Shown here piece after piece: positions 11,067-28,018 of a stretch of DNA of 45,711 bases. Position 1 is the stretch's first letter, and each line of letters starts with the position of its first letter. The notes under the pieces are model-generated. The model worked only from the letters and a program-made list of their open reading frames with translations, did no database searches and had not been told where the DNA came from. The stretch spans positions 1 to 45,711 of the forward strand of contig JAHHHA010000045.1 of NCBI GenBank assembly GCA_019359615.1, written 5' to 3'. Source of the DNA: Cyanosarcina radialis HA8281-LM2 (GTDB lineage Bacteria; Cyanobacteriota; Cyanobacteriia; Cyanobacteriales; CCAP-1448). The translations under genes and the position numbers were made by a program.

Positions 11067-14000
11067 CTAGGTACTGGCAAGGAGTTTAGGGTTTACTAAC
11101 TTCATCGATTCCGATCGTTCTACAGCCCCTAAAGCTTTGAGAGTGGCTATTGTGGCTGGAGTTAACCCAGTAACGCCAATAATGTTTGTGCCTTCATATA
11201 GTCTGGTCGCTCTCAGGATTTTGATACACTCGCCACTGCTGGCATCCCACAGCCTGACGGTCTGGTCTTGAGAGCCACTAACTACAGTTTTACCATCGGG
11301 ACTCCAATGCACCGATCGAGCCTCGCTAGTATGTCCGGTCAAAGTTTTGAGACACTCCCCAGTTCTGACATCCCACAACTTTACAGTATGGTCTAAACTG
11401 CCGCTAGCTAGGGTTTTACCGTCGGGACTAAAGGCGACAGAAAATACTCCTTGGCTGTGTCCGGTCAAAGTTTTTAGTCGATCGCCGCTGTCAACGTCCC
11501 ATAGAGCAATGGTACGATCGAAACTCCCACTAGCTAAGGTTTTACCATCGGGACTAAAAGCGACTGTATAAACTCGATTGGTATGCCCAGTCAAGGTTTT
11601 CAGGCATTCACCAGTATCGATATCCCACAACTTCACGCTTTGGTCGCCGCTGCCACTGGCCAAGATCTCCCTCACCCCTAACCCCTCTCCCAACGGTGGG
11701 AGAGGGGAATGAGGACTAAAAGCTACCGACCACACCCAAGTCAGATGTCCGGTAAAAGTTTGCAGGCACTCGCCAGTTTTAGCATCCCAAAGCTTCACTG
11801 TATGGTCGCCGCTGCTACTGGCTAGAGTGCGACCGTCGGGACTAAAGGCGATCGAATATACCCAATTATGATGTCCTACGAGCGTTTTCCAGCAACGTCC
11901 CGTGCTGACATCCCATAACTTGATGGTACGATCGCCGCTGCCGCTAGCTAAGGTTTGCCCGTCGGGACTGAAGGCGACGCTATAGACTTGTTGGGTATGT
12001 CCGGTGCAAATGTGGTAGCACTGACCTCGATCGATATCCCACAGTCGCACGGCGCGATCGAAACTCCCGCTAGCTAAGATCCCCCCTGCGCCCCCCTTAA
12101 CAAGGGGGGTTGAGGGCATCGGGCTACAGGCGACTGCCAAGATCCGATTAGTATGTCCGGTGCAAACTTTAAAGCATTGTTTGGAACTCAGATCCCACAG
12201 TCTCGCGGTTTGATCGGGGCTACCGCTGGCAATGGTTTGACCGTCACCGCTAACGGCTACGCCAAATACTCCTTGGTCGTGTCCGGTAAATGTTTTCAGG
12301 CATTCACCAGTTTTGGCATCCCACAACTTCACCGTTTGGTCGCCGCTGCCGCTGACGAGGTACTGGCCGTCGGGACTAAAAGCGATTGACAATACCCAAT
12401 TTTGATGCCCGATGAAAGTTTTCAGACATTCCCCAGTTTCCACATCCCACAATTTAACTGTGCGATCGGGGCTGCAACTGGCAATGGTTCGACCGTCCGG
12501 ACTAAAAGCGACTGACAATACCCAGTTTTCATGTCCGACGAGCGTTTTCAGACATTCGCCAGTTTCCACATCCCACAATTTGATGGTGCGATCGCCGCTA
12601 CCGCTAGCTGCGATCTCTCCTCCGCCCCTCTTATTAAGGGGGGTTGGGGGGAATTCCCTGCGGGAACGCTGCGCGAACGGACTAAAAGCCACGGCAAACA
12701 CTGCTTGAGTATGCCCGGTAAATGTTTTCAGGCATTCCCCAGTCTTGACATCCCACAGTTTGAGGGTGCGATCGATACTCCCGCTGATGAGGGTGCGATC
12801 GTCTGGACTAAAGACGATCGAGTAGACCTCATCATCGTGTCCGGTAAAGATTTTCAGACATCGACCGTTAGCGAGATCCCATAACCTCAGAGTGCGATCG
12901 GCACTGCCGCTGGCCAGAGTTCGGCCGTCGCTGCTGAAAGCCACCGATCGGATCCAATTGGTATGCCCTTTAAAAACTAATAATGGTTCGCCCGTTCGCA
13001 CCTGCCACAAGCAGACTTTGCAATCGTTATCGCCAGTAGCCAATAATTGCCCGTCGCGACTTAAAGCTACAGACCAAACTTCGTCTAAGGTTTCAGAAAA
13101 CAGCGATCGTCGCAAGTCAGAATAGGCAAAATTGACATCGAGCAAATTCATCCCTTCGAGGTTGGCTTGCCACACCGTCAGATGAGAAAAATCGTAGTTG
13201 CTGATATCGATTTGCAACTCGCGCAGGATGTTGATAATGTTGCCGCAGGCATATCCTGTTTCGAGTGGAGGTTGACCCCGCAATTTTTCTAAGATTTGCT
13301 GCAAGCGATTTTCCAGATTTTGACGCGAACCCAAAATTCTCAGCAAGCGATCGATTACGGGTTGCAAAATCAGGCGAACTTGCGTCTCTCTGATATAGTT
13401 CTTAGCTTGAGCTTTCACCAAAGCGTGATAGCGAAACAGGTCAATCGATTTGGGATTTGGGATTTGGGATTTGGGATTAGCTTCGCCTGGGAATCGATCG
13501 ATTTCTGGCGGCACAATTTCTTCAGTAACCCGTTGAATCAAATCGGTAGTCATGTATTCCATGACCACGGGTTGTTGGGTAAAGCTAGCAGCAGTTTTTT
13601 CAATTATCGATCGTCGTTGCAAAGATGCCAGCGATTGTAAAAGTTCTCCCGTCGAAATACTAGCAACGAAATTATCTTCTAATTCCTGTAGAGTTACTGG
13701 TTCTCGTTCGATCGCCAGCCAGTACATGATTTCTTTTTCCCTCTCTGTCAGACGATCGAATTGCCGTTCTAGGAGATCTCGGATATCTTCAAAAACTAAA
13801 TTGCCTTGACGGACAAACTCGATAAAATTGGTAACGTCGTTCTCGAAGACATCTTGAATTGCTGCTGCCACCATTTTTAAAGCCAACGGATTGCCAGCAT
13901 AGTGTTTGACTACTGTTTGCCATTCATCTTCCGCACCAGAAAAATCTCCCTTAGCACGAAAAATTTCTCGCCCTTCTTCGACTTTCAAACCATGCAATTG

Positions 14001-14897
14001 CAAGGAACGAACTGGTAGCGTTTCTCCTTCGATCGAGACAAATTCTTTAGGCTTTTCCCGACTGGTAAGCAACAAGCAACTTTGATGGCGGCTTTCTCCC
14101 ACTCGTTTGAATAATTCGCCATAAGCTTCGTATCCTCCCCGATAGAACCCAGCGCGATCTCCACCTCGCATAATCGTTTCGGTATTATCCAAAATTACCA
14201 AACAGCGATAAGTCCGAAAGCGATCGAGCAACCGAGAAATTCTGCCATCAACATCTGCGGGGAAATCAGCTTCGGTTTCTTGAGAATCGGATAGAAATTG
14301 TAGCAAGCTAACTAACAGTTCTGGCAGGGGTGGAGCATTCCGCAAGCTGCGCCAGATGACGCGATCGAATCTATGTTGAATTTGTTCGGCGCAGCGAATT
14401 GCTAGTGCCGTCTTGCCAATTCCTCCCATGCCTAATAACGCCACTAAACGGCAGGGGTTTTCACTAGTAATCCATTGCTTTAATAACTCTAATTCGGCGG
14501 CGCGTCCGTAAAAAATGGGGACATCAACCGCTTCTCCCCAATCTACTCGATGCGATGTGAAGCCATTATTTGTCGGTTCGGCAGCGAGGGGGTTAATTGG
14601 ACTGAGATTCAAAGAGGCCCGATCTTGACCCTCTAACTGCTCTCTAGCTTTGGCATACCGTCGGAATACTGATTGGAGATTGCCTTTAGTAACTTCTTGT
14701 TCCAAAGTTTTTGAAAGTAGTTTCCATAACTTAGAACCAACATCTTTGAGGTAATTTTCCTCATAACTGCAACTGTCGGCCATTTCGGGATAAGTGATTC
14801 CTTCCCACGATTGGCGAAATACCATCTCTTGAATATCGTTTAATCGTTGGGGGTAGAGATGTTTATCTAAAATGACCAGTGCTTGTTGGATATCCAT
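11067..14897 (-). CDS. STAND ATPase with NB-ARC domain and 14 WD40 repeats
   Basis: A 1276-residue signalling or immune-type protein. Residues 1-90 form a helical HTH-like domain of the kind seen in vWA-MoxR-associated cyanobacterial proteins. Residues about 120-450 form an NB-ARC ATPase: Walker A GMGGIGKT at 156-163, Walker [11 protein letters not shown], and a GNPLALKM motif. A winged-helix region follows. From about residue 600 there are 14 WD40 blades (two seven-bladed propellers), nearly all with LASGSGD and (T/I)xKLWD signatures. Such proteins oligomerise when the propeller senses a ligand. Blades 4, 8 and 11 each carry an extra 10-18 residues encoded by palindromic repeats, and [11 protein letters not shown] near residue 475 comes from a fourth repeat; the frame stays open. 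The N-terminal effector is not an obvious enzyme. Confidence 0.9.
11662..11713. repeat. Palindromic repeat inserted in WD40 blade 11
   Basis: Inside the WD40 gene. It carries CCCTCACCCCTAACCCC and the hairpin CCCCTCTCCCAACGG-TGGGAGAGGGG, the same class as the intergenic repeat at 5034. It replaces the usual four residues DGKT between FSP and LASGSGD with 16 residues ([16 protein letters not shown]), a net gain of 36 bases. Confidence 0.9.
12077..12119. repeat. Palindromic repeat inserted in WD40 blade 8
   Basis: Inside the WD40 gene. The hairpin CCCCCCTTAACAAGGGGGG replaces DGQT after CSP with 14 residues ([14 protein letters not shown]) before LASGSFD, a net gain of 30 bases. This is a different repeat class from that in blade 11 but at the same position of the blade. 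Confidence 0.9.
12610..12677. repeat. Composite repeat inserted in WD40 blade 4
   Basis: Inside the WD40 gene. It combines an AAGGGGGGTTGGGGGG-type repeat with a second module, CCCTGCGGGAACGCTGCGCG, and encodes 22 residues ([20 protein letters not shown] plus EI) in place of DGRT before ASGSGD, a net gain of 54 bases. Again the position in the blade is the loop after FSP. Confidence 0.9.
13446..13490. repeat. Heptamer repeat TTTGGGA inserted in the STAND gene
   Basis: Four tandem units of GGGATTT lie in the linker between the ATPase and the helical region. Read on the coding strand they give [11 protein letters not shown], in frame. The same class of sequence (AATCCAAAATCCAAAATC) occurs between genes at 37265, 40308 and in the elements at 42201 and 42694. 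Confidence 0.8.
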
Positions 14898-18381: not shown

Positions 18382-18732
18382 TCGCACTAGCTTCGATCGG
18401 TGAATCAACTTTTCCAGAACTTACGCAGCAACGACCTACATAGCGGTAGTGGTGCGTTACGCTGCGCTTTAGCTTAGCCATGCCGCAGGCTTTACACACC
18501 CTACATTTAGAGGCTTGCGGTAAGCATTGGGGTAGGGTGCGTTAGACGGCGATAACCTTCGCTCAGACTTGAATTCAAAAATCCGTCGTAACGCACCAAA
18601 TTAGGTGTGTTGCTCCACTACATTTAGAGCCTTTGCGGTAAGTTCTGTTTCCCATCGACCTCTAACACAAGTCGATAAATCATCTGTGTTTATCTGTGTT
18701 CATCTGTGGTTTTTATTCAAACCTCTAAATTT
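18382..18732. repeat. Dispersed repeats between nrtP and narB
   Basis: The interval holds GGTGCGTTACGCTGCGC and its inverted counterpart GGGTAGGGTGCGTTAG, then GTAACGCACCAAATTAGGTG, a well-known type of cyanobacterial palindromic repeat. Just before narB come three near copies of ATCTGTGTT (18679-18709). No gene is seen. The repeats may host a processing or attenuation site between the two nitrate genes, but they show no T-tract. Confidence 0.65.
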
Positions 18733-20967
18733 ATGCAAAAAATAACTGACACCATCAAAACACTTTGTCCTTACTGCGGCGTTGGCTGCGGCTTAGAAGT
18801 TCGATCGAGCCAGCAGACCAATAGCGATTGGAAAGTGCAAGGCGATCGCTCTCATCCTTCCAGTCAGGGTATGGTCTGCGTTAAAGGGGCGACGATCGCC
18901 GAATCTTTAAATAAAGACCGACTGCTGTATCCCATGGTCCGAGATACCCTAGATCGACCCTTTCGCCGGGCCAGTTGGGATGAAGCTTTGACGCTGATAA
19001 CCCAAAAGATTAAAACCGTAACGAGCGATCGAGGGGTGGATGCGATTTGTATGTACGGTTCCGGTCAATTACAAACTCAAGACTACTACATCGCCCAAAA
19101 ACTACTCAAAGGATGTTTGGGAACGAATAACTTCGATGCTAATTCCCGGCTGTGTATGTCTTCGGCAGTAGCAGGTTACATTCAAAGCTTTGGGAGTGAC
19201 GGCCCTCCTTGCTGTTACGAAGATTTAGAACTGACCGACTGCGCCTTTTTAATCGGCACTAATACGGCTGAATGTCATCCAATTATCTTCAACCGCCTGC
19301 GGAAATATCACAAAAAGCATCCTCACGTGAAGCTAATCGTTGTCGATCCGCGCCGCACCCCCACAGCCGAAGCTGCCGATCTCCATCTGGCGATTAAACC
19401 TGGAACTGACATCGATCTACTCAACGGAATTGCCCATCTGTTATTAAGCTGGGGCTACATCGATCGAGAATTTATTGCCGATCGTACTACCAACTTTGCG
19501 GATTTAGTCGAGGTACTAAAACACTACTCTCCCGATATTGTGGCGCAAACCTGCGGCATCTCAGAACTAGAATTAGAAACCGCCGCTAGATACTGGGGCC
19601 AATCTCAAAGAGTTTTATCCTTGTGGTCGATGGGCATCAACCAGTCGTCTGAAGGAACCGCTAAAGTTCGCAGCCTCATCAACTTGCATCTGATGACCGC
19701 CCAAATTGGCAAACCTGGGGCCGGTCCGTTTTCCCTCACCGGACAACCCAACGCCATGGGAGGACGGGAAACTGGTGGTTTGAGCCATTTGTTACCGGGA
19801 TATCGATCGGTTAAAAATGAGTTACACCGAGCCGAAATCGAGCAGTTTTGGGCACTTTCTGCTGGGCAGATCTCTCCTCATCCCGGTCGCACCGCCTGGG
19901 AGATGATAACGGGACTAGAACGGGGTGAAGTCGGGGTGTTGTGGATTGCGGCCACTAACCCGGCCGTCAGTATGCCCGATTTAGAACGGACGAAGGCAGC
20001 TTTGAGGCGATCGCCTTTTACGATTTACCAAGATGCCTACTACCCCACGGAAACTGCCGCTTACGCCCACGTTCTCCTACCTGCGGCCCAGTGGGGCGAG
20101 AAGACGGGAGTGATGACTAACTCAGAACGAGTGATAACGTTGTGTCCGGCGTTCAAGTCTCCAGCGGGAGAAGCCAAACCCGATTGGGAAATCTTTGCCG
20201 AAGTGGGGCGAAGATTAGGTTTTGCCGACCAGTTTGCTTTTGCCGATTCAGCCGCCGTTTATGCTGAATTTGTCAAACTGACCCGCCACCGTCCTTGCGA
20301 TCAAACTGGCATCAGCCACGATCGCTTGCTTAAAGAAGGCCCGATTCAATGGCCGTGCCCCTCGCCTCGCGCTGCTCGGAGTGATGAGTTAGAAGTGTTA
20401 AGTGATAAGTTAAACACCTCTTCCACTCAACACTCAACACTCAACACTCAACACTCTCCCAAACGTCTTTACTCTGATTTTCGGTTTAACACTCCCGACG
20501 GTCGCGCCCGATTTGGGGCATATCATTCTAGCGGGCTGGCGGAACCTGCCGATCCTGACTATCCCTTTGTTCTGACTACAGGCAGGCTTTACGGTCACTG
20601 GCACACTCTAACTCGCACTGGGAGAATCGAGAAAATTCAGCAGATGTACCCAGAACCTTCGATCGAAATTCATCCCCGCGATGCGGTGGGGTTGGGAGTG
20701 AAAGATGGCGAATGGGTGGAAGTGCGATCGCGTCGCGGTCTGGCTAAGTTTCCGGTGCGGGTAACAAAAGCGATCGCACCAGGTATGGTCTTCGTCCCCA
20801 TGCACTGGGGGGCGCTGTGGGCAGAACGATCTGAAGCTAATGCCTTGACTCATCCTCATTCTTGTCCCGATTCCGGGCAACCAGAATTGAAAGCTTGTGC
20901 CGTGCAGTTGATTTCATTGTCGATCGAGTCGATGGTTCCTCGACACCAAATATCATCGATCGCCTAA
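18733..20967 (+). CDS. narB: Assimilatory nitrate reductase, molybdenum-bisMGD type
   Basis: A 744-residue ferredoxin-dependent nitrate reductase. The N-terminal [4Fe-4S] motif has C12, C15, C19 and C49 (CPYCGVGCG, then GMVCVKG). The molybdopterin domains show [23 protein letters not shown] and [13 protein letters not shown]. The C-terminal dinucleotide-binding domain contains [16 protein letters not shown] and [10 protein letters not shown]. It reduces nitrate to nitrite in the cytoplasm. The ATG at 18733 is chosen; a GTG at 18706 lies inside a repeat. Residues about 544-576 ([10 protein letters not shown] and [12 protein letters not shown]) come from an in-frame dispersed repeat. The last 25 residues differ from what I expect of the family end. 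Confidence 0.95.
20362..20460. repeat. Dispersed repeat inserted in frame in narB
   Basis: About 100 bases that include AGTGATGAGTTAGAAGTG and tandem CTCAACACTCAACA units. The complementary form GTTGAGTGTTGAGTG occurs between genes at 10035-10065. The frame of narB is kept, adding about 30 residues between IQWPCP and KRLYSDFRF. Confidence 0.8.
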
Positions 20968-21736: not shown

Positions 21737-22537
21737 ATGGCTACCTCTTACCAGATTACTGCCACGAAAATTCAGACTTACCACCGCTGCCCCCAATCTT
21801 ATTATTTCCGCTACGAACTGGGGCTGAAAACCCCTGCGTTCTTCGGTTCCGCTGCTTTGGGAACCGCCCTGCATCAATCCCTGGCTAAAATTCACCGCGA
21901 CTGGCATTACCTCGATCCCTTACCCCAGATGGACTGGCTGTTGCAGTGCTGGCAGGAACGATCGACTAACTTGAGTCCGGGACAAGTAACTGAAGGTCAA
22001 GAGATTCTCGAAAGGTACTACCAAAATTTCATCGCGCCAGAAACCGCCTTGAAAAGGCCGTTGGCAGTAGAAGGCCGGATCAAGGGCTACTTGCGAGTGG
22101 AGAATCTAGAGTTCTTGTTGTGGGGGAGATACGATCGTCTCGACTATCTGGAAGACGGACTCGAACTCATCGAATACAAGTCAAATAAAGAACTCAAACT
22201 CCCTACCTTAGAAGAGATCGACCTGCAAATCGGCTTCTACTATCTGGCACTCGAACAAAGATACCAAGAGAGCTTGCGACAGTTGAGCCTGTTGTCCTTG
22301 CGAACCTGCGAGAAGATGAGTTTTGATGCCAGCGCCGACCACAAGGAGTGGGTAGAGGCAACTGTTAGTCAATTGGCATTGAGGTTGCGAACAGATGAGG
22401 TCTGGGAGGCCACGCCTTCTGAAGGGTGCGCCAGGTGTCACTACGCCCGATACTGTCAGGCAGTGTCAGAGCATCCCGAACCTCTACCTGAAACTGGGCG
22501 CACCAGGGGCCAGATCCAACTGGTGCTGGATTTGTGA
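21737..22537 (+). CDS. RecB-like PD-(D/E)XK nuclease with Cys cluster
   Basis: A 266-residue nuclease of the PDDEXK_1/RecB-like group. The N-terminal motif TKIQTYHRCPQSYYFRYELG supplies the first cysteine. The catalytic core has GRYDRLDYLEDGLELIEYKS (Asp, then Glu-x-Lys), and the C terminus has GCARCHYARYC, giving a four-cysteine set that probably holds a [4Fe-4S] cluster as in AddB and Cas4. No CRISPR array or cas gene is nearby, so Cas4 is not supported. It more likely trims DNA in repair. The stop is 16 bases from the end of the convergent defence-type gene. No ribosome site is visible before the ATG. Confidence 0.85.
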   Translation: MATSYQITATKIQTYHRCPQSYYFRYELGLKTPAFFGSAALGTALHQSLAKIHRDWHYLDPLPQMDWLLQCWQERSTNLSPGQVTEGQEILERYYQNFIAPETALKRPLAVEGRIKGYLRVENLEFLLWGRYDRLDYLEDGLELIEYKSNKELKLPTLEEIDLQIGFYYLALEQRYQESLRQLSLLSLRTCEKMSFDASADHKEWVEATVSQLALRLRTDEVWEATPSEGCARCHYARYCQAVSEHPEPLPETGRTRGQIQLVLDL

Positions 22538-22553: not shown

Positions 22554-25500
22554 TTACTCCCGTGCAGCACTGTTAAGTAATTCCTCTATCCCGCGTATAC
22601 CCAATCTCAAAAAACGATCTTGCAGATCGATCGCACGCTGGATTAGTTTTGGGTCGTCGGTTTCATCAGCTTCCCGTAAAATTTCGTTTAATGCCGAAAT
22701 TAATGGTGCTGTTTGCCAGAGTAAACTTGCATCTGTCATGGTTTCAAATTTTTCCGCCAGTGCCTCAGTTAACTCCAGCCCAGATAACGGATCGCGAGAG
22801 GATTCATGGCCTAACCATTTGAGAAATCCATCGAATTTGAAAACTGTTGTAGATGGCGAAATGCCTTCAATAAAAGCCAAAGCCAGCCTACGTCCCATAA
22901 GTTTTTTTGTCTTTTCTGCTTCAAAACATCTATCTATTTTAAAAATAATATCGTCAGATAAATATTCAGAACATAAAATAGTAAATAATCCAGAGATACA
23001 TTTTGCTGTATGTTCTTGTAAGTCTAAATTAGCTACGAACACTTGAGTTGCTCCCTTCCAGGCAGCATGATTCTGGGTTTCTTCCAAGGTTTTAAATAGT
23101 TCTTCCTGCCTGATGTGTCCGGCTAAGCTTGCTAGTGTAGAAATTCGTCCCCAAGTCTCGCCAGCTTCATCCATCCCTTCGAGCAAGAGACGATTTAAGT
23201 AGGGCGCAACTAGGTTAAAGTTATCTCGATACTGATAGTACAAGCACCACTCTATATATTTCCATAAATGGGCTTGAGGTTCTTGGAAAATATCGGCTAG
23301 CAGTTGCCATCCCAACTCAGGTTTTTTGGACATGAGGAATGGAAGTCGATCGAGAACGGGAAGTCTTACATAAATTGCCTTATCGCTGGCAATGTGGCGC
23401 AGCAGTAGTAACAGCAATTCGGGAACGGGTTGTTCTTTTTCTAATAGTCTGTTGTAAAGCCTTATTGCACTTTCTGCTCCAACACCATGGACACAATTAA
23501 GACGTGCGAAATCAGGATCTTGGCTGTCGGCTCTAAGTTCTCGATCGCTAGAATATTTAGAGTACAGCCAGAATAGTAATAGCGATAGCCGTTCGGCTGA
23601 ATTAAAATCAATTAATACCTCACAACAAGCTTCTAAAGCTGCGCTAAGAGTGCGACCTTCTTCCCATATAATCGCATAGCGTTCCAGCCAATTGAGTAAA
23701 GTAGTGGCGAGTTTTTTTCCGTCTGGCAGCGGTTCGATCGGTTCCCATGGTTGTCTTGGACTTAGGTTACTAAAGCGAGAGCGCAGATGAGTCGCGACCC
23801 CTTCTACAACAGCACATAAATAATCCCGATCGTTTTCCTCAATAAACTGGGTGAATAACGCTACAAACCTTGCTGGATCTAAGGAGCAAGCCTCACTCAA
23901 TACCCTTTTAACTTCACTAAATCCACCCACCATATTTCTGTCGAAGGTGTGTGGATTTTTATCTGTTCGGTAGTGACGCAGTAGTTGAAAAATCCCTTTA
24001 TCTGATAGTTTGAGTAAGTCTTGGGGAGATAGTGGTGGCACTACGCATCCGCCCCAGCTATGAATATTAGGTTCGGGACGGGTGTAGCCAAAATCGTTTT
24101 CTACACGCTCGATAAATTCCTGAATATTTTCATTGCGGAAGATGCAGGGAATTAAAAGGCATAAATCGTATAAATGGTGGTACGCCCAAAAAGAAAGCTC
24201 TTCTTCATACTCCTTCCTTTCAGACAACAGCGACAAAATCGTTGCTTGATTAGCTTCTCGCGCTGATTTTGAGATTTTCGGGTAAGCCGCGTGCATGAGT
24301 TGACCTAATTCGTAGCTTAAGTCGCTGTCGCGAAGAATTTTGTCATCTTGTAACAGTTTTTCTACCCCGTGAATATAAGCTTGAAAAAACTCATTTAGAA
24401 ATAAAAATCCTGCCAAACAATTGAGTTCGGCGATCGGAGTCCAAAACCTAATTAAGCCGGAATAATCAATATTTTCTTGATAAGCTTCAATCGCAAAATA
24501 ACGTATGGCTAACTCTTGAGAGTTTCGCAATCGTTCTTCGTTCTCAATCCACCAATTTTTATAATGGCGAGCGCGGTATTTAATTGCCTTCTCAACCGCG
24601 TTCAGTAAAGCATGAATATCATCATAATCGAGAATACTACGACTATGCCTGCTTTGCCATGAGGTGTAGCGTAAAAATGCTCCCCGCAATCTATCTGCTC
24701 CATATATTGCTGGGCTAGCAGCACTGTAACGTTCTAATTCATTCAACGCTAAATTTAGCAACGTATCGGATTGACAAAAACGGATTTCTAGAAAGTTGTC
24801 GTCGTGAAAATCATGAGGCATACAACGCAGCCGATCGCGCAAATCTAAACTGCACGCATCTTCTGAGGAAATATTTTTGGTGATGTATCTCCACAGTAAA
24901 TCATCTCCAGAATTAGTTGCTTGTATCCACTTGCTAAGAGAATCGCCAACGAAGCTATATTCGGCGTTAAGATTGTCAATTATGGCTTCCAGTATTTCCC
25001 GGATACCGTTAGTCTTCCAAGCTTGAAAATTAATTAATGCAGAATTAATTGTTTGGGCTACACTCTGCGTATTGGCCCATGGTTGTGCGATCGCTTCTCG
25101 CCAGAGTGCCACTACCTCTACAGGGTAGATATTCATCCACACGCTTAAATGCCCGACAATCTGAAGCAACCATTTTTCCCGTTGTTCTGACGATAAAACT
25201 TCAGGAAACAAATTGCGCGTAACAATATTAAACCAAGCTCGATTGTTTACCCTCAACAACAAACGTTGAAATAAATCTGGGAATTGTTGGAAAATTCTCC
25301 GCAGCGATCGCCAATCTTCATCCACAGGCGAGATTTCAGCAAAGGATTCGCAAACCAGCCTGCGAACGTGGTAAGCAATTTCATCATGGGATAACACCTC
25401 CCACACCTGTCGCCTAAAGGAATCGGGCTGATAAGCACGCAAATAAAAGAAAAATGCTCGAACTGCCGGACGGATAAAAGGAAGTTGAGGGCAATCGAGA

Positions 25501-27200
25501 ATAAATTGCGCTAAAGTTTGGTTTTTAGCTAACGCGGCTTGGACGGTAATACATTCTCCTAAAGTTTGATGGCTAAATTCTAAAACTTCAGGAGAATTTT
25601 CTAAGAGAACTTCTTGGCTAATTAACTCCCTAACAATATCTTCGCTGACCCCAAAAGATGCCTTAATGCACGATTTTATTCGGTTTTGCATCAGCCGTTC
25701 GGCCATATTTTGCAATGCCACGATAGCATTATTACCAAGCCTGGGATTTTTAACTACGACTTCATTAATAAAGCTGTCATACAGTTCGTAGGCAGATGCA
25801 GGTTGGGACCGAACGCCAAGTTTTGCTAGTTTTTCGTAAATCCGTAAGTTTTGAGGTATTTGTAACAACGCCCTGAGTTCCGGGGTTAAGTTGAAGATAT
25901 CGACCTGCCATCTGATTAAAAAAGGCTTAACTTCGTTTTCAAAATCCAGCGGTTGTAAGTAGATTTTATGCTGCCACGAACGACCTCGAAGCAAGGGGTC
26001 GTACTCTAAATCAAAATTGCGGCAAGCTGTAACGATAGTCACTTTATCGATTTTTTCTAGGCGATCGATGATTCTTAGAAAAACCTTCAGGGCTTCGTGC
26101 TGGCGACTCAGCGATAAAACATCCAGGGAATCAATTACGACAACAACTCTGCGAAAATCGGAGAGGCGGGCGCATTGACCGACAAGATCTTCGGGGAAGC
26201 CTTGACCTACTAGATCTCGTTCGCTTTCCACATTGGTAAATAGATCGCCTTTAATAAATAAAAGTCCCCAAACGGACTCTTTTTCGCGCTCGATGTAATC
26301 TACAAGGTCTAGCAAAACGCAAGTTTTTCCGCTACCAGGACGGTCTGTGAGTAAAATAGTTCGGCTTCCCCGATCGATTAATTCAATGATTTTGGTCGGC
26401 TCCGAACGGGGAATCGGTTCGCCATCTATAGTTCGCAACCAGTTTCGTCCAATAGTTGAAGCTTGTTTGAATGCTGCAAGGATTTCTGCTTCAGTACGTT
26501 TTGGGGTTGGACTTATTCCTTTTTCGGTTAATTTAGCTAATACATCCGAGCGGGTAATTGTGGGTTTTGTATCTCTTAAATTTGTTTCGTGACTTACCAA
26601 ATAGCGTTCCAGTACGTCGATTGCCAGATCTGCCATTGGGATTAATCGCTCTAAATCTAACTTGTTTTGACGATCCCATTCATCAAAATCTTTAGGTGTG
26701 TCAAAACTGATTTTATTAACTAGAGAATAAGTATCCTGTTCGCTACGTTCTAAAATTTTTGCTAGAGTTGCTAATGATTTCTGTTGATTGCTATCTGCCT
26801 CGCGGTGAAAAGCTGAGTATTCGTGAATAAGTTTACAATTTTCCTTTAAACTTGCCAAATCGCCAAAGGGCGAGCGAGAGTAAAACTTAACTTCAGAATT
26901 AGCTCTCGACTCTAACTGGTCGCGAGCCTTACATAATTCATCCTTTAATACCTTGTCTGAAAACGACCAAGCTTTGTGGTCAGTTTGATTCTTCTTCGCT
27001 TGAATAAAACAAGCACGGCCATTTTTGTAGAGAACGACAATATCATCTACAGTCACCGAAGAATTTTCCCCTAGTAACCCAGTTGAATTAACTTGGATGC
27101 TTTCGATAGCATCGTCCTCTAAAAGTTTAATCAACCAGTGGAGAGCCACACGCAGTTGATATTCATCTCCCAGGCTAGACTTTTTTCCTGCAATACTCAT
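22554..27200 (-). CDS. Cap4-like nuclease fused to a STAND NTPase, probable antiphage defence protein
   Basis: A 1548-residue protein. Residues 1-100 look like a Cap4-type PD-(D/E)XK nuclease: GDEYQ with E13, then VDDIVV with D52/D53, and CFIQAKK with Q67/K69. Residues about 245-600 form a STAND ATPase with Walker A TDRPGSGKT (K292) and Walker B RVVVVIDSLD (D357). The remaining roughly 900 residues are helical and repeat-like, as expected of a ligand sensor. This is the Avs architecture: the sensor binds a phage protein, the ATPase assembles, and the nuclease cuts DNA. The ATG at 27200 is chosen; a TTG at 27236 would add 12 residues. It stands alone. The convergent RecB-like nuclease and the alkA relic do not form an operon with it. 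No stop or frameshift occurs. Confidence 0.82.
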   Translation of the reverse strand: MSIAGKKSSLGDEYQLRVALHWLIKLLEDDAIESIQVNSTGLLGENSSVTVDDIVVLYKNGRACFIQAKKNQTDHKAWSFSDKVLKDELCKARDQLESRANSEVKFYSRSPFGDLASLKENCKLIHEYSAFHREADSNQQKSLATLAKILERSEQDTYSLVNKISFDTPKDFDEWDRQNKLDLERLIPMADLAIDVLERYLVSHETNLRDTKPTITRSDVLAKLTEKGISPTPKRTEAEILAAFKQASTIGRNWLRTIDGEPIPRSEPTKIIELIDRGSRTILLTDRPGSGKTCVLLDLVDYIEREKESVWGLLFIKGDLFTNVESERDLVGQGFPEDLVGQCARLSDFRRVVVVIDSLDVLSLSRQHEALKVFLRIIDRLEKIDKVTIVTACRNFDLEYDPLLRGRSWQHKIYLQPLDFENEVKPFLIRWQVDIFNLTPELRALLQIPQNLRIYEKLAKLGVRSQPASAYELYDSFINEVVVKNPRLGNNAIVALQNMAERLMQNRIKSCIKASFGVSEDIVRELISQEVLLENSPEVLEFSHQTLGECITVQAALAKNQTLAQFILDCPQLPFIRPAVRAFFFYLRAYQPDSFRRQVWEVLSHDEIAYHVRRLVCESFAEISPVDEDWRSLRRIFQQFPDLFQRLLLRVNNRAWFNIVTRNLFPEVLSSEQREKWLLQIVGHLSVWMNIYPVEVVALWREAIAQPWANTQSVAQTINSALINFQAWKTNGIREILEAIIDNLNAEYSFVGDSLSKWIQATNSGDDLLWRYITKNISSEDACSLDLRDRLRCMPHDFHDDNFLEIRFCQSDTLLNLALNELERYSAASPAIYGADRLRGAFLRYTSWQSRHSRSILDYDDIHALLNAVEKAIKYRARHYKNWWIENEERLRNSQELAIRYFAIEAYQENIDYSGLIRFWTPIAELNCLAGFLFLNEFFQAYIHGVEKLLQDDKILRDSDLSYELGQLMHAAYPKISKSAREANQATILSLLSERKEYEEELSFWAYHHLYDLCLLIPCIFRNENIQEFIERVENDFGYTRPEPNIHSWGGCVVPPLSPQDLLKLSDKGIFQLLRHYRTDKNPHTFDRNMVGGFSEVKRVLSEACSLDPARFVALFTQFIEENDRDYLCAVVEGVATHLRSRFSNLSPRQPWEPIEPLPDGKKLATTLLNWLERYAIIWEEGRTLSAALEACCEVLIDFNSAERLSLLLFWLYSKYSSDRELRADSQDPDFARLNCVHGVGAESAIRLYNRLLEKEQPVPELLLLLLRHIASDKAIYVRLPVLDRLPFLMSKKPELGWQLLADIFQEPQAHLWKYIEWCLYYQYRDNFNLVAPYLNRLLLEGMDEAGETWGRISTLASLAGHIRQEELFKTLEETQNHAAWKGATQVFVANLDLQEHTAKCISGLFTILCSEYLSDDIIFKIDRCFEAEKTKKLMGRRLALAFIEGISPSTTVFKFDGFLKWLGHESSRDPLSGLELTEALAEKFETMTDASLLWQTAPLISALNEILREADETDDPKLIQRAIDLQDRFLRLGIRGIEELLNSAARE

Positions 27201-27379
27201 ATCGATTTCAATTATACCTTTTGACCAAATATGCAACTGGCGCTCAATTTGCAGCTTAGTAAATTTGCTCTTTTGTTGCCAATTTTATCGGATTGAGATC
27301 GTCGTTTAATATGAAAACAACTCGTTCTATGAATCATGATGTTCGTGAATTTGTCAGACGCGATCGCTTCCGTTTTTCC

Positions 27380-28018
27380 TTAATACTGCACTGTTACGGG
27401 GTCGAGGCTGCGCCACAGATACCAGGTAGCCACGGTGCGATACGGCTGCCATCGTTGGGAAAGAACCTGAATTTCCGCCGCACTCAGGTTGCCATAGTGC
27501 AGCCGGATGGCGTTGAGCAGTCCCAAGTTGGAAAGGGGCAGGACATTGGGGCAATTGAGATGGAAAATCAGGAACATTTCGGCTGTCCGTTTACCAATTC
27601 CCTTGATAGCCACCAGTTGACCAACCACCTCCTTGTCGTTCATCCTCTCCCACTGGCTGGGGGTGAGGGTTCCCGACTCAAAACCACGGACGTTCGCGTA
27701 GCGTGTGCGGAGCACGTATCGCCTTCAGGTAGCCGATTTTCTGCCGCGAGAGTCCGCACTGCCGCGACTCTTCCCCAACTGCCAGCAATCGCGACGGAGA
27801 GATAGTTTCCAGTTGTGCTTCCAGTCGCTGCCAGATGGCATCGGCGGCTTTGACGGAGATTTGCTGCTAGGGTAACGGCCAACGGCCCTCATCAAAGTCT
27901 GTAAAGGATTGCTCCGCTTTTGGAGAACCGCATCGGGATAGGAGACAATCAAACCCGCCATGACTTCATAGGTCCGGGTGAGGTAGTTAGTCGCATCTTG
28001 CCAGTAAGAAGGAGCCAT
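27380..28018 (-). pseudogene. DNA-3-methyladenine glycosylase (AlkA-type), inactivated
   Basis: The parts of an HhH-GPD base-excision glycosylase can be read in order but in different frames. They are: MAPSYWQDATNYLTRTYEVM (28018 onward), QISVKAADAIWQRLEAQLE from about 27880, CGLSRQKIGYLKAI, and then, after an inserted repeat (about 27684-27722, CGTGCTCCGCACACGCTACG), ESGTLTPSQWERMNDKEVV through the hairpin VAIKGIGKRTAEMFLIF to SLDPVTVQY at 27380. At least two frame changes and the repeat insertion break it. The 3' half remains intact as a frame from 27715. Confidence 0.85.

Follow-up and report, generated by a model that had tools for sequence, protein, structure and literature searches.

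Does the long minus-strand reading frame of the window, by which we mean the whole 45,711-nucleotide stretch of Cyanosarcina radialis HA8281-LM2 analysed here, encode an antiviral receptor and, if so, of which kind? An earlier note, made from the sequence alone, had taken the gene for a candidate defence gene of the Avs type, in which a PD-(D/E)XK nuclease is fused to a STAND ATPase and a sensor of about 900 residues. The frame is open over 1560 codons (22554-27236) with neither frameshift nor stop, as the note had remarked of its 4.6 kb, and the gene has a single copy in its own 6.5-Mb genome. Judged from the alignments, the reading frame is not a product of chance, because full-length relatives occur across several phyla.

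Two starts are possible, TTG at 27236 and ATG at 27200; residues are numbered throughout by P0001, the translation from the TTG, in which the ATG is residue 13. We consider the ATG the likelier start because the corresponding column holds M in 62/76 aligned rows (L in 11/76, the window row counted), because the full-length relative in the PDB has its first M at that column, and because a TATAAT stands upstream, a hexamer that is absent from the list of the consensus promoter scan. The coordinates of all features are collected in Table 1.

Table 1. Positions of the receptor gene, its parts and its neighbours in the window (residues after P0001)
Feature	Position	Strand	Basis or remark
Whole gene	22554..27200	-	ATG 27200, stop codon 22554-22556; 1548 aa (M = P0001 residue 13)
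TATAAT, possible -10 box	27211..27216	-	10 nt upstream of ATG 27200
Cap4/DUF4297-type PD-(D/E)XK nuclease effector, residues 13-240	26517..27200	-	PADLOC LmuA E 6.3e-10; predicted structure
D64-D65, putative active-site acidic pair	27042..27047	-	D65 compared by motif with D40 of HerA-associated DUF4297
Q79-A80-K81, Q-x-K of putative active site	26994..27002	-	Conservation in Cap4-only rows
STAND (NACHT-like) ATPase with winged-helix region, residues 241-640	25317..26516	-	Pfam AAA; NLRP NACHT structural match; Avs2 profile match
Walker A DRPGSGKT, residues 298-305	26322..26345	-	G301, G303, K304 invariant in 76/76 rows
Walker B VVVVIDSLD, residues 364-372	26121..26147	-	D369, D372 invariant in 76/76 rows
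C-terminal all-helical sensor, residues 641-1560	22557..25316	-	Predicted structure
HEAT/ARM-like solenoid part of sensor, about residues 1063-1479	22800..24050	-	PP2A A-subunit structural match
Two ORF pieces directly upstream of receptor gene	27380-28018	-	Broken
Molybdopterin oxidoreductase gene	18706-20967
Stand-alone PD-(D/E)XK/Cas4-like gene	21737-22537	+	PF12705 E 1e-29; convergent with receptor gene
1276-aa protein, 14 WD40 stretches	11067-14897	-	PADLOC HEAT-ARM_XIII E 7e-41

Nuclease, switch and sensor in one chain

All PADLOC matches of the window protein are to Cap4-type domain models, and the Cap4 profile search that the earlier note had proposed returned LmuA. In the model of residues 13-700 (23-row alignment, mean pLDDT 87.8), the nuclease aligns by VIA-align with HerA-DUF4297 at Z 16.2 (rmsd 3.0 over 177 residues) and with Hachiman, Cap4 and LmuA chains at Z 14-15. 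Profile and model thus agree on a PD-(D/E)XK nuclease at the N terminus; a placement outside that group, which the note had named as fatal to its reading, did not occur, and the acidic pair precedes the Q-x-K that it had picked out. A PD-(D/E)XK fold with D...Q-x-K, the mark of the Cap4/DUF4297 nucleases, is therefore found in sequence and predicted structure together.

The active site is closely kept among the relatives. In the 66 Cap4-only rows of the main family, that is, the 76 full-length rows minus four of the sister family (QVKR), four with caspase and two whose N-terminus is missing (L107, L100), the combination D64-D65-Q79-K81 is exact in 64, the window row counted. D65 and K81 are each found in 66/66 and Q79 in 65/66, the two exceptional rows reading E64 (L053) and E79 (L075). 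By motif, and nearly by spacing, D65, Q79 and K81 are the counterparts of D40, Q53 and K55 in DUF4297, the active-site mutant of HerA-DUF4297 being D40A/Q53A/K55A in the passages available of that study; the same passages report that mutation of the nuclease active site abolishes defence by HerA-DUF4297 and that DUF4297-HerA cleaves dsDNA upon dimerisation (PMC11291478).

For the middle part, the only Pfam match above a curated cut-off was AAA, just over it (E 9.3e-5), with NACHT under its cut-off (E 0.18); NCBIfam gave no match above cut-off for the window protein, and PHROGs nothing convincing. The modelled ATPase aligns with the NACHT modules of NLRP9 and NLRP3 at Z 22 by VIA-align (for NLRP9, rmsd 4.0 Å over 391 residues). 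Walker A and Walker B motifs within a predicted NACHT-type fold identify a NACHT/STAND ATPase, and the fusion of such an ATPase to the nuclease, as the note had read it, holds.

The rest of the chain, modelled over residues 640-1560 from a 25-row alignment (mean pLDDT 86.1, pTM 0.57), is helical almost throughout. Its length, residues 641-1560, agrees with the estimate in the note, which had also seen no TPR pattern and recommended a structure prediction; the prediction returned a HEAT-like helical solenoid, not plain TPR. We say that the second part of the sensor resembles a HEAT-like solenoid, and no more than this, because the match to the PP2A A-subunit (Z 14.2, rmsd 4.2 Å, 351 residues) is near the level that unrelated helical repeats attain; by profile the same comparison is weak (E 0.03). 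The sensor is more divergent than the switch, with a median identity to the window of 30-32% versus 36% for the ATPase, and 64-69% versus 81% in the nearest relative (L039). The best 50 structural matches listed for the sensor model include no Avs3 or Avs4 chain, which excludes nothing.

Named families, relatives and genomic setting

Ranked by E-value, the Foldseek matches of the 13-700 model are led by Avs3 with terminase (8dgc, 6e-15), followed by Avs4 with portal (2.5e-12) and then by NLRs. The TM-scores over the whole of this model are low (Avs3 0.30, Avs4 0.24) and the rmsd large, so the likeness is one of folds and domain order, not of overall pose; by VIA-align, Avs3 reaches Z 17.4, again with a large rmsd, and the NLRs score above Avs3 and Avs4. 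In sequence, the solved Avs3 and Avs4 gave no phmmer match at E ≤ 1 and no match to the sensor profile at E ≤ 10, and they are absent from the best 60 of the 100 matches listed for the N-part profile.

The assignment to the Avs type in the earlier note stands in part only. The order of parts is Avs-like, an N-terminal effector, a STAND NTPase and a large, predicted C-terminal repeat sensor lying in one chain; membership did not stand, since the suggested profile search gave no Avs-named match to the window protein (PADLOC at E ≤ 1, NCBIfam) in libraries that include Avs2, Avs3a and Avs1c models, and since the sensor is unlike that of Avs2. The Avs1c model NF041811 had no match in the genome of the window, where its control likewise matched nowhere. 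The PADLOC Avs2 models PDLC02164 and PDLC02161 are not among the matches of the window protein at E ≤ 1, yet they match L028, a member of the sister family described below; PDLC02164 has matches in 13/388 genomes of the class at E ≤ 1e-30, the genome of the window not being one of them.

Profile-profile comparison by hhalign separates the two halves of the question. The family aligns with Avs2 at probability 94 (E 1.2e-7) over 465 columns, covering the ATPase and about 130 columns past it, the Avs2 side being built from seven of ten stretches fetched for the Avs2-model matches in the class. The sensor (660-1560) against the C-terminal part of Avs2 gives probability 0.2 and E 0.26. An hhalign E-value refers to one pair and is not calibrated; we therefore used two controls, a reversed one (probability 0.2, E 0.37) and a positive one, the sensor of the sister family against that of the window family (probability 99.7, E 2e-26). 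These results indicate that the window family and Avs2 have the ATPase switch in common, and the sensor not detectably so. Membership of Avs2 was ruled out, neither the Avs2 models nor the Avs2 sensor matching by profile. There is good support for regarding the gene as an Avs-like defence gene, and it is best classed as an unnamed type of its own, outside the Avs subfamilies tested.

The cyanobacterial sister family (L028, L029, L035, L037) has open frames of 1509-1573 aa, the nuclease motif QVKR and a homologous sensor, 16-19% identical to that of the window. In its ATPase part, L028 matches PDC-M54A at E 3e-22 and Avs2 at E 2.5e-7 (PADLOC), and two members of the window family, L087 and L010, match PDC-M54A weakly (E 1e-6); through these matches the sister family forms a link between the window family and both PDC-M54A and Avs2. 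PDC-M54A gave no match to the window protein at E ≤ 1. The sole PDC-M54A match at E ≤ 1e-30 among the 388 class genomes, L163 330-5330 (+), is split by an in-frame TAG.

A full-length homologue of 1523 aa, named 'AAA family ATPase', is found in the PDB (9n00/9n01/9yix; E 1.2e-217 over residues 13-1559). Because of its match to L087, the Klebsiella grimontii relative (2380 bits), this protein belongs, by sequence, with a large and mostly proteobacterial branch. It is absent from the best 50 structural matches listed for either model (library to 2026-04-08), which suggests a later release of 9n00, and a literature search on the codes 9n00 and 9n01, in a collection to which bioRxiv and most subscription journals are external, found no paper. 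With structures of a full-length relative already solved, the family is not entirely new, and others must be at work on it.

Matches occur in 5/60 relatives at E ≤ 1e-3 and in 10/388 genomes of the class at E ≤ 1e-20, and the ATPase-sensor part in 12/388 genomes of the order (own genome counted in each case, and several matches to the weaker sister family included). In a scan of GTDB species genomes we found 110 relatives and retained 80 loci, from Cyanobacteriota, Pseudomonadota, Bacteroidota, Nitrospirota, Chlorobiota, Thermodesulfobacteriota and other phyla. By these matches the family is widespread but patchy. A housekeeping orthologue in all cyanobacteria, which the note had said would count against it, did not appear; a housekeeping gene is ruled out by the patchy distribution. 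In a quick tree of 83 rows the phyla are intermixed, with long branches flagged, as expected for a horizontally moving gene. The gene has a GC content of 42% (GC3 37%) versus 45.5-53% (GC3 42-60%) in seven compared neighbour genes, and the GC profile steps down from about 50% at both gene ends, the region at 30-31 kb likewise being at 43%; this fits a recent arrival without proving it.

Nine plasmid records match, five of them, all from Nostocales, covering at least 80% of the query: four caspase versions (two read as L010 and L041, two known from the annotation 'caspase family protein') and one Cap4 version split by IS630. Some of the caspase-version records look like copies of one plasmid. 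The split version, on a Nostoc sp. MS1 plasmid (L011, 6004-11829), is a receptor relative interrupted by the IS630 element. None of 50,697 phage records was matched by tblastn at E ≤ 1e-5, viral contigs yielded one relative among 93 pattern matches, and 20,395 E. coli records contained no blastn match to a 3-kb stretch of the Klebsiella relative.

The earlier note had further described the gene as standing alone in a stretch rich in repeats and relics. Among 914 neighbouring ORFs at 91 loci, the largest cluster covers 13 loci and 19 proteins (the longest a caspase protein) and the next five loci, so that no partner gene recurs and the receptor, as the loci suggest, is probably a one-gene system. 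A two-gene system was ruled out for want of a recurring partner. The remark on repeats and relics is only partly right: in its favour are the ORF pieces upstream, which look like halves of a broken AlkA-type DNA glycosylase, and two places, near 20.4 and 21.1 kb, with short repeats that recur elsewhere in the genome. In the molybdopterin oxidoreductase gene, which we take to be nitrate-reductase-like, the DNA matches of most relatives break off at about 20361 and restart at about 20461; a short repeat at 20424-20460 recurs on many contigs within this genome. The Cas4-like gene was found in one of the 15 genomes searched, that of the window (E ≤ 1e-3).

No defence island appeared among the ten neighbour proteins scanned. 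Beside the relatives, single genes match defence models, e.g., Avs3a, PD-T4-6 and SoFic. When one nearest gene (0-3 kb) was taken at 86 loci and one far gene (3.5-6 kb) at 77, from 319 and 206 eligible genes, both sets matched PADLOC models at E ≤ 1e-10 (among the families listed, 25 of 105 near and 25 of 78 far), and for this reason we claim no contrast by proximity.

Effector exchange on a common body

In the 83 tree rows, five N-termini are caspases (Peptidase_C14; L040, L049, L010, L041, L043), one is a PNP_UDP_1, nucleosidase-like domain (L047) and one a GT4-conflict domain (L098). Pfam supports L010, L040, L043, L047 and L098, while L049 and L041 were assigned by alignment; the other 76 rows count as Cap4 by default, including a few with a cut N-terminus. 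All five caspase rows carry GHG and DCC motifs, which we take, from the sequence, for the caspase His and Cys. An exchange of effectors on a conserved NTPase-sensor body, the other mark of an Avs-like STAND receptor, is thus apparent from the alignments.

Behind the caspase, the former weapon appears in successive states. L040 and L049 retain a full Cap4 in which D65 has become N; L010 and L041, whose caspase domains are 98% identical, read N64-N65 and have lost the A-K of Q-x-K together with the stretch after it; and L043 has no Cap4 left. D65 is lost in 4/4 caspase proteins with a Cap4 remnant, from two lineages, versus 0/66 of those with Cap4 only. On this alignment, the old nuclease can be seen decaying within the clade to which the window itself belongs.

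A careful tree, built from 16 bodies, places the window row and its relatives from Kamptonema, all with intact Cap4, as sister to the caspase-bearing L043 (99/99), in a clade of four caspase and three Cap4 rows. Forcing the four caspase-bearing bodies into one clade was rejected (AU p 0.0009, a test chosen after the quick tree and leaving out the partial row L049). The bodies would imply either that caspase was gained more than once or that an ancestor with caspase plus Cap4 lost one weapon or the other; as a single origin of the fused caspase domains was not rejected (AU p 0.097), we stop short of claiming repeated gains. At four of the five caspase loci (L010, L041, L043 and L040, the first two being near copies) the fetched flanks contain additional caspase genes of this kind, up to 8 kb away in L040, and some encode more than 1000 aa; at L049, with 5.3 kb upstream available, no further one was seen. 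The fused domain of L040 is closest to a neighbour (80%), and those of L010 and L043 have their closest match outside their own neighbours. A local source of the caspase modules is plausible from these comparisons.

What is new here, as far as sequences tell, is the combination of exchangeable effectors and a series of decaying nucleases on one ATPase-sensor body. Tentatively, and with rather more doubt than for the general reading, the family might be an unnamed Avs-like type with a layered change of weapons, in which a caspase is placed before a working Cap4 and the nuclease then dies by D to N, is partly deleted and is lost; the series would live on cyanobacterial plasmids and chromosomes near caspase genes, and the target of the sensor would differ from terminase and portal.

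Mode of action, alternatives and known systems

The gene probably encodes a one-gene, NLR-like antiviral receptor that acts like an Avs protein. To the parts, conserved active sites, common family body and effector exchange already read from sequences and models, the analogy with Avs3 and Cap4/DUF4297 would add ligand binding, oligomerisation, DNA cleavage and an abortive outcome, which we infer in the following order. At rest, the STAND ATPase would keep the receptor inactive; upon infection, the long helical sensor would bind a protein of the phage or another invader, and ATP would drive oligomerisation. This might let the Cap4 domains pair up into dimers and cleave DNA irrespective of its sequence, which would end the infection and probably kill the cell. 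In the available parts of the published accounts, Avs1-4 cleave host and phage DNA after recognition of terminase, portal or another phage protein (PMC12931631), and SeAvs3 tetramerises, pairing its nuclease domains (PMC11291478). The exchange of effectors on one body fits the tripartite effector-NTPase-sensor plan that the portion available of the former account gives for STAND receptors (PMC12931631). Recognition of a different phage protein would fit a sensor not detectably related to that of Avs2; against the antiviral reading stands that this sensor has no recognisable relative whose ligand is known.

The best surviving alternative, which we hold unlikely, keeps the same machinery and gives it a non-phage trigger: the receptor would guard against plasmids, conjugation or other mobile DNA, or would sense a host protein disturbed by infection. 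The plasmid-borne copies and a recurring neighbour family, integrase-like by eye, at 5/91 loci make competition among mobile elements plausible, and nothing points to a phage protein as the trigger; against this, the Avs proteins that lead the structural matches by E-value were solved in complex with phage terminase and portal. Far less probable is a regulatory or housekeeping STAND protein of the MalT-like kind with a nuclease for normal DNA metabolism, for although metabolic and regulatory genes surround the single copy, 378/388 class genomes are without a match at E ≤ 1e-20 and relatives swap the effector for a protease-, nucleosidase- or glycosyltransferase-type domain. Least credible is a defunct gene that has persisted by chance since it was acquired horizontally, an idea prompted by the adjoining broken gene and repeats and by broken relatives such as the IS630-split Nostoc copy, since 4.6 kb are open without a stop and the catalytic, Walker A and Walker B residues are all intact.

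A candidate antiviral receptor of this kind matters in several respects. The family is widespread and has been left unnamed by the annotation libraries tried (Pfam, NCBIfam, PADLOC), and it ties the switches of Avs2-type bacterial receptors and animal NLRs to a different sensor. Additionally, among its close cyanobacterial relatives nature has coupled a similar sensor to a nuclease in some proteins and to a caspase in others, which allows two direct questions: do these variants respond to the same ligand, and can the weapon be changed without retuning the switch?

Among known systems, Avs3 (SeAvs3, 8dgc) has the same plan as the window protein, with a Cap4-type nuclease, a STAND ATPase and a C-terminal sensor. 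PDC-M54A, a phage-defence candidate of PADLOC, is matched in the ATPase by the sister L028, whereas the window protein itself is unmatched. With Cap4 of CBASS, HerA-DUF4297 and LmuA of Lamassu, the window protein has the nuclease fold and the D...Q-x-K motif in common; the control differs, in that a cyclic-nucleotide sensor governs Cap4 and an SMC complex governs LmuA, neither being under a STAND switch, and a HerA ring controls the nuclease of HerA-DUF4297 where the window protein has a STAND switch instead. Animal NLRs (NLRP3, NLRP9, NLRC4, NOD2) have the fold of the NACHT module in common with it (Z 19-22), but they join this module to a CARD or PYD effector and a leucine-rich-repeat sensor, whereas the window protein joins it to a nuclease and a sensor that is predicted to be HEAT-like.
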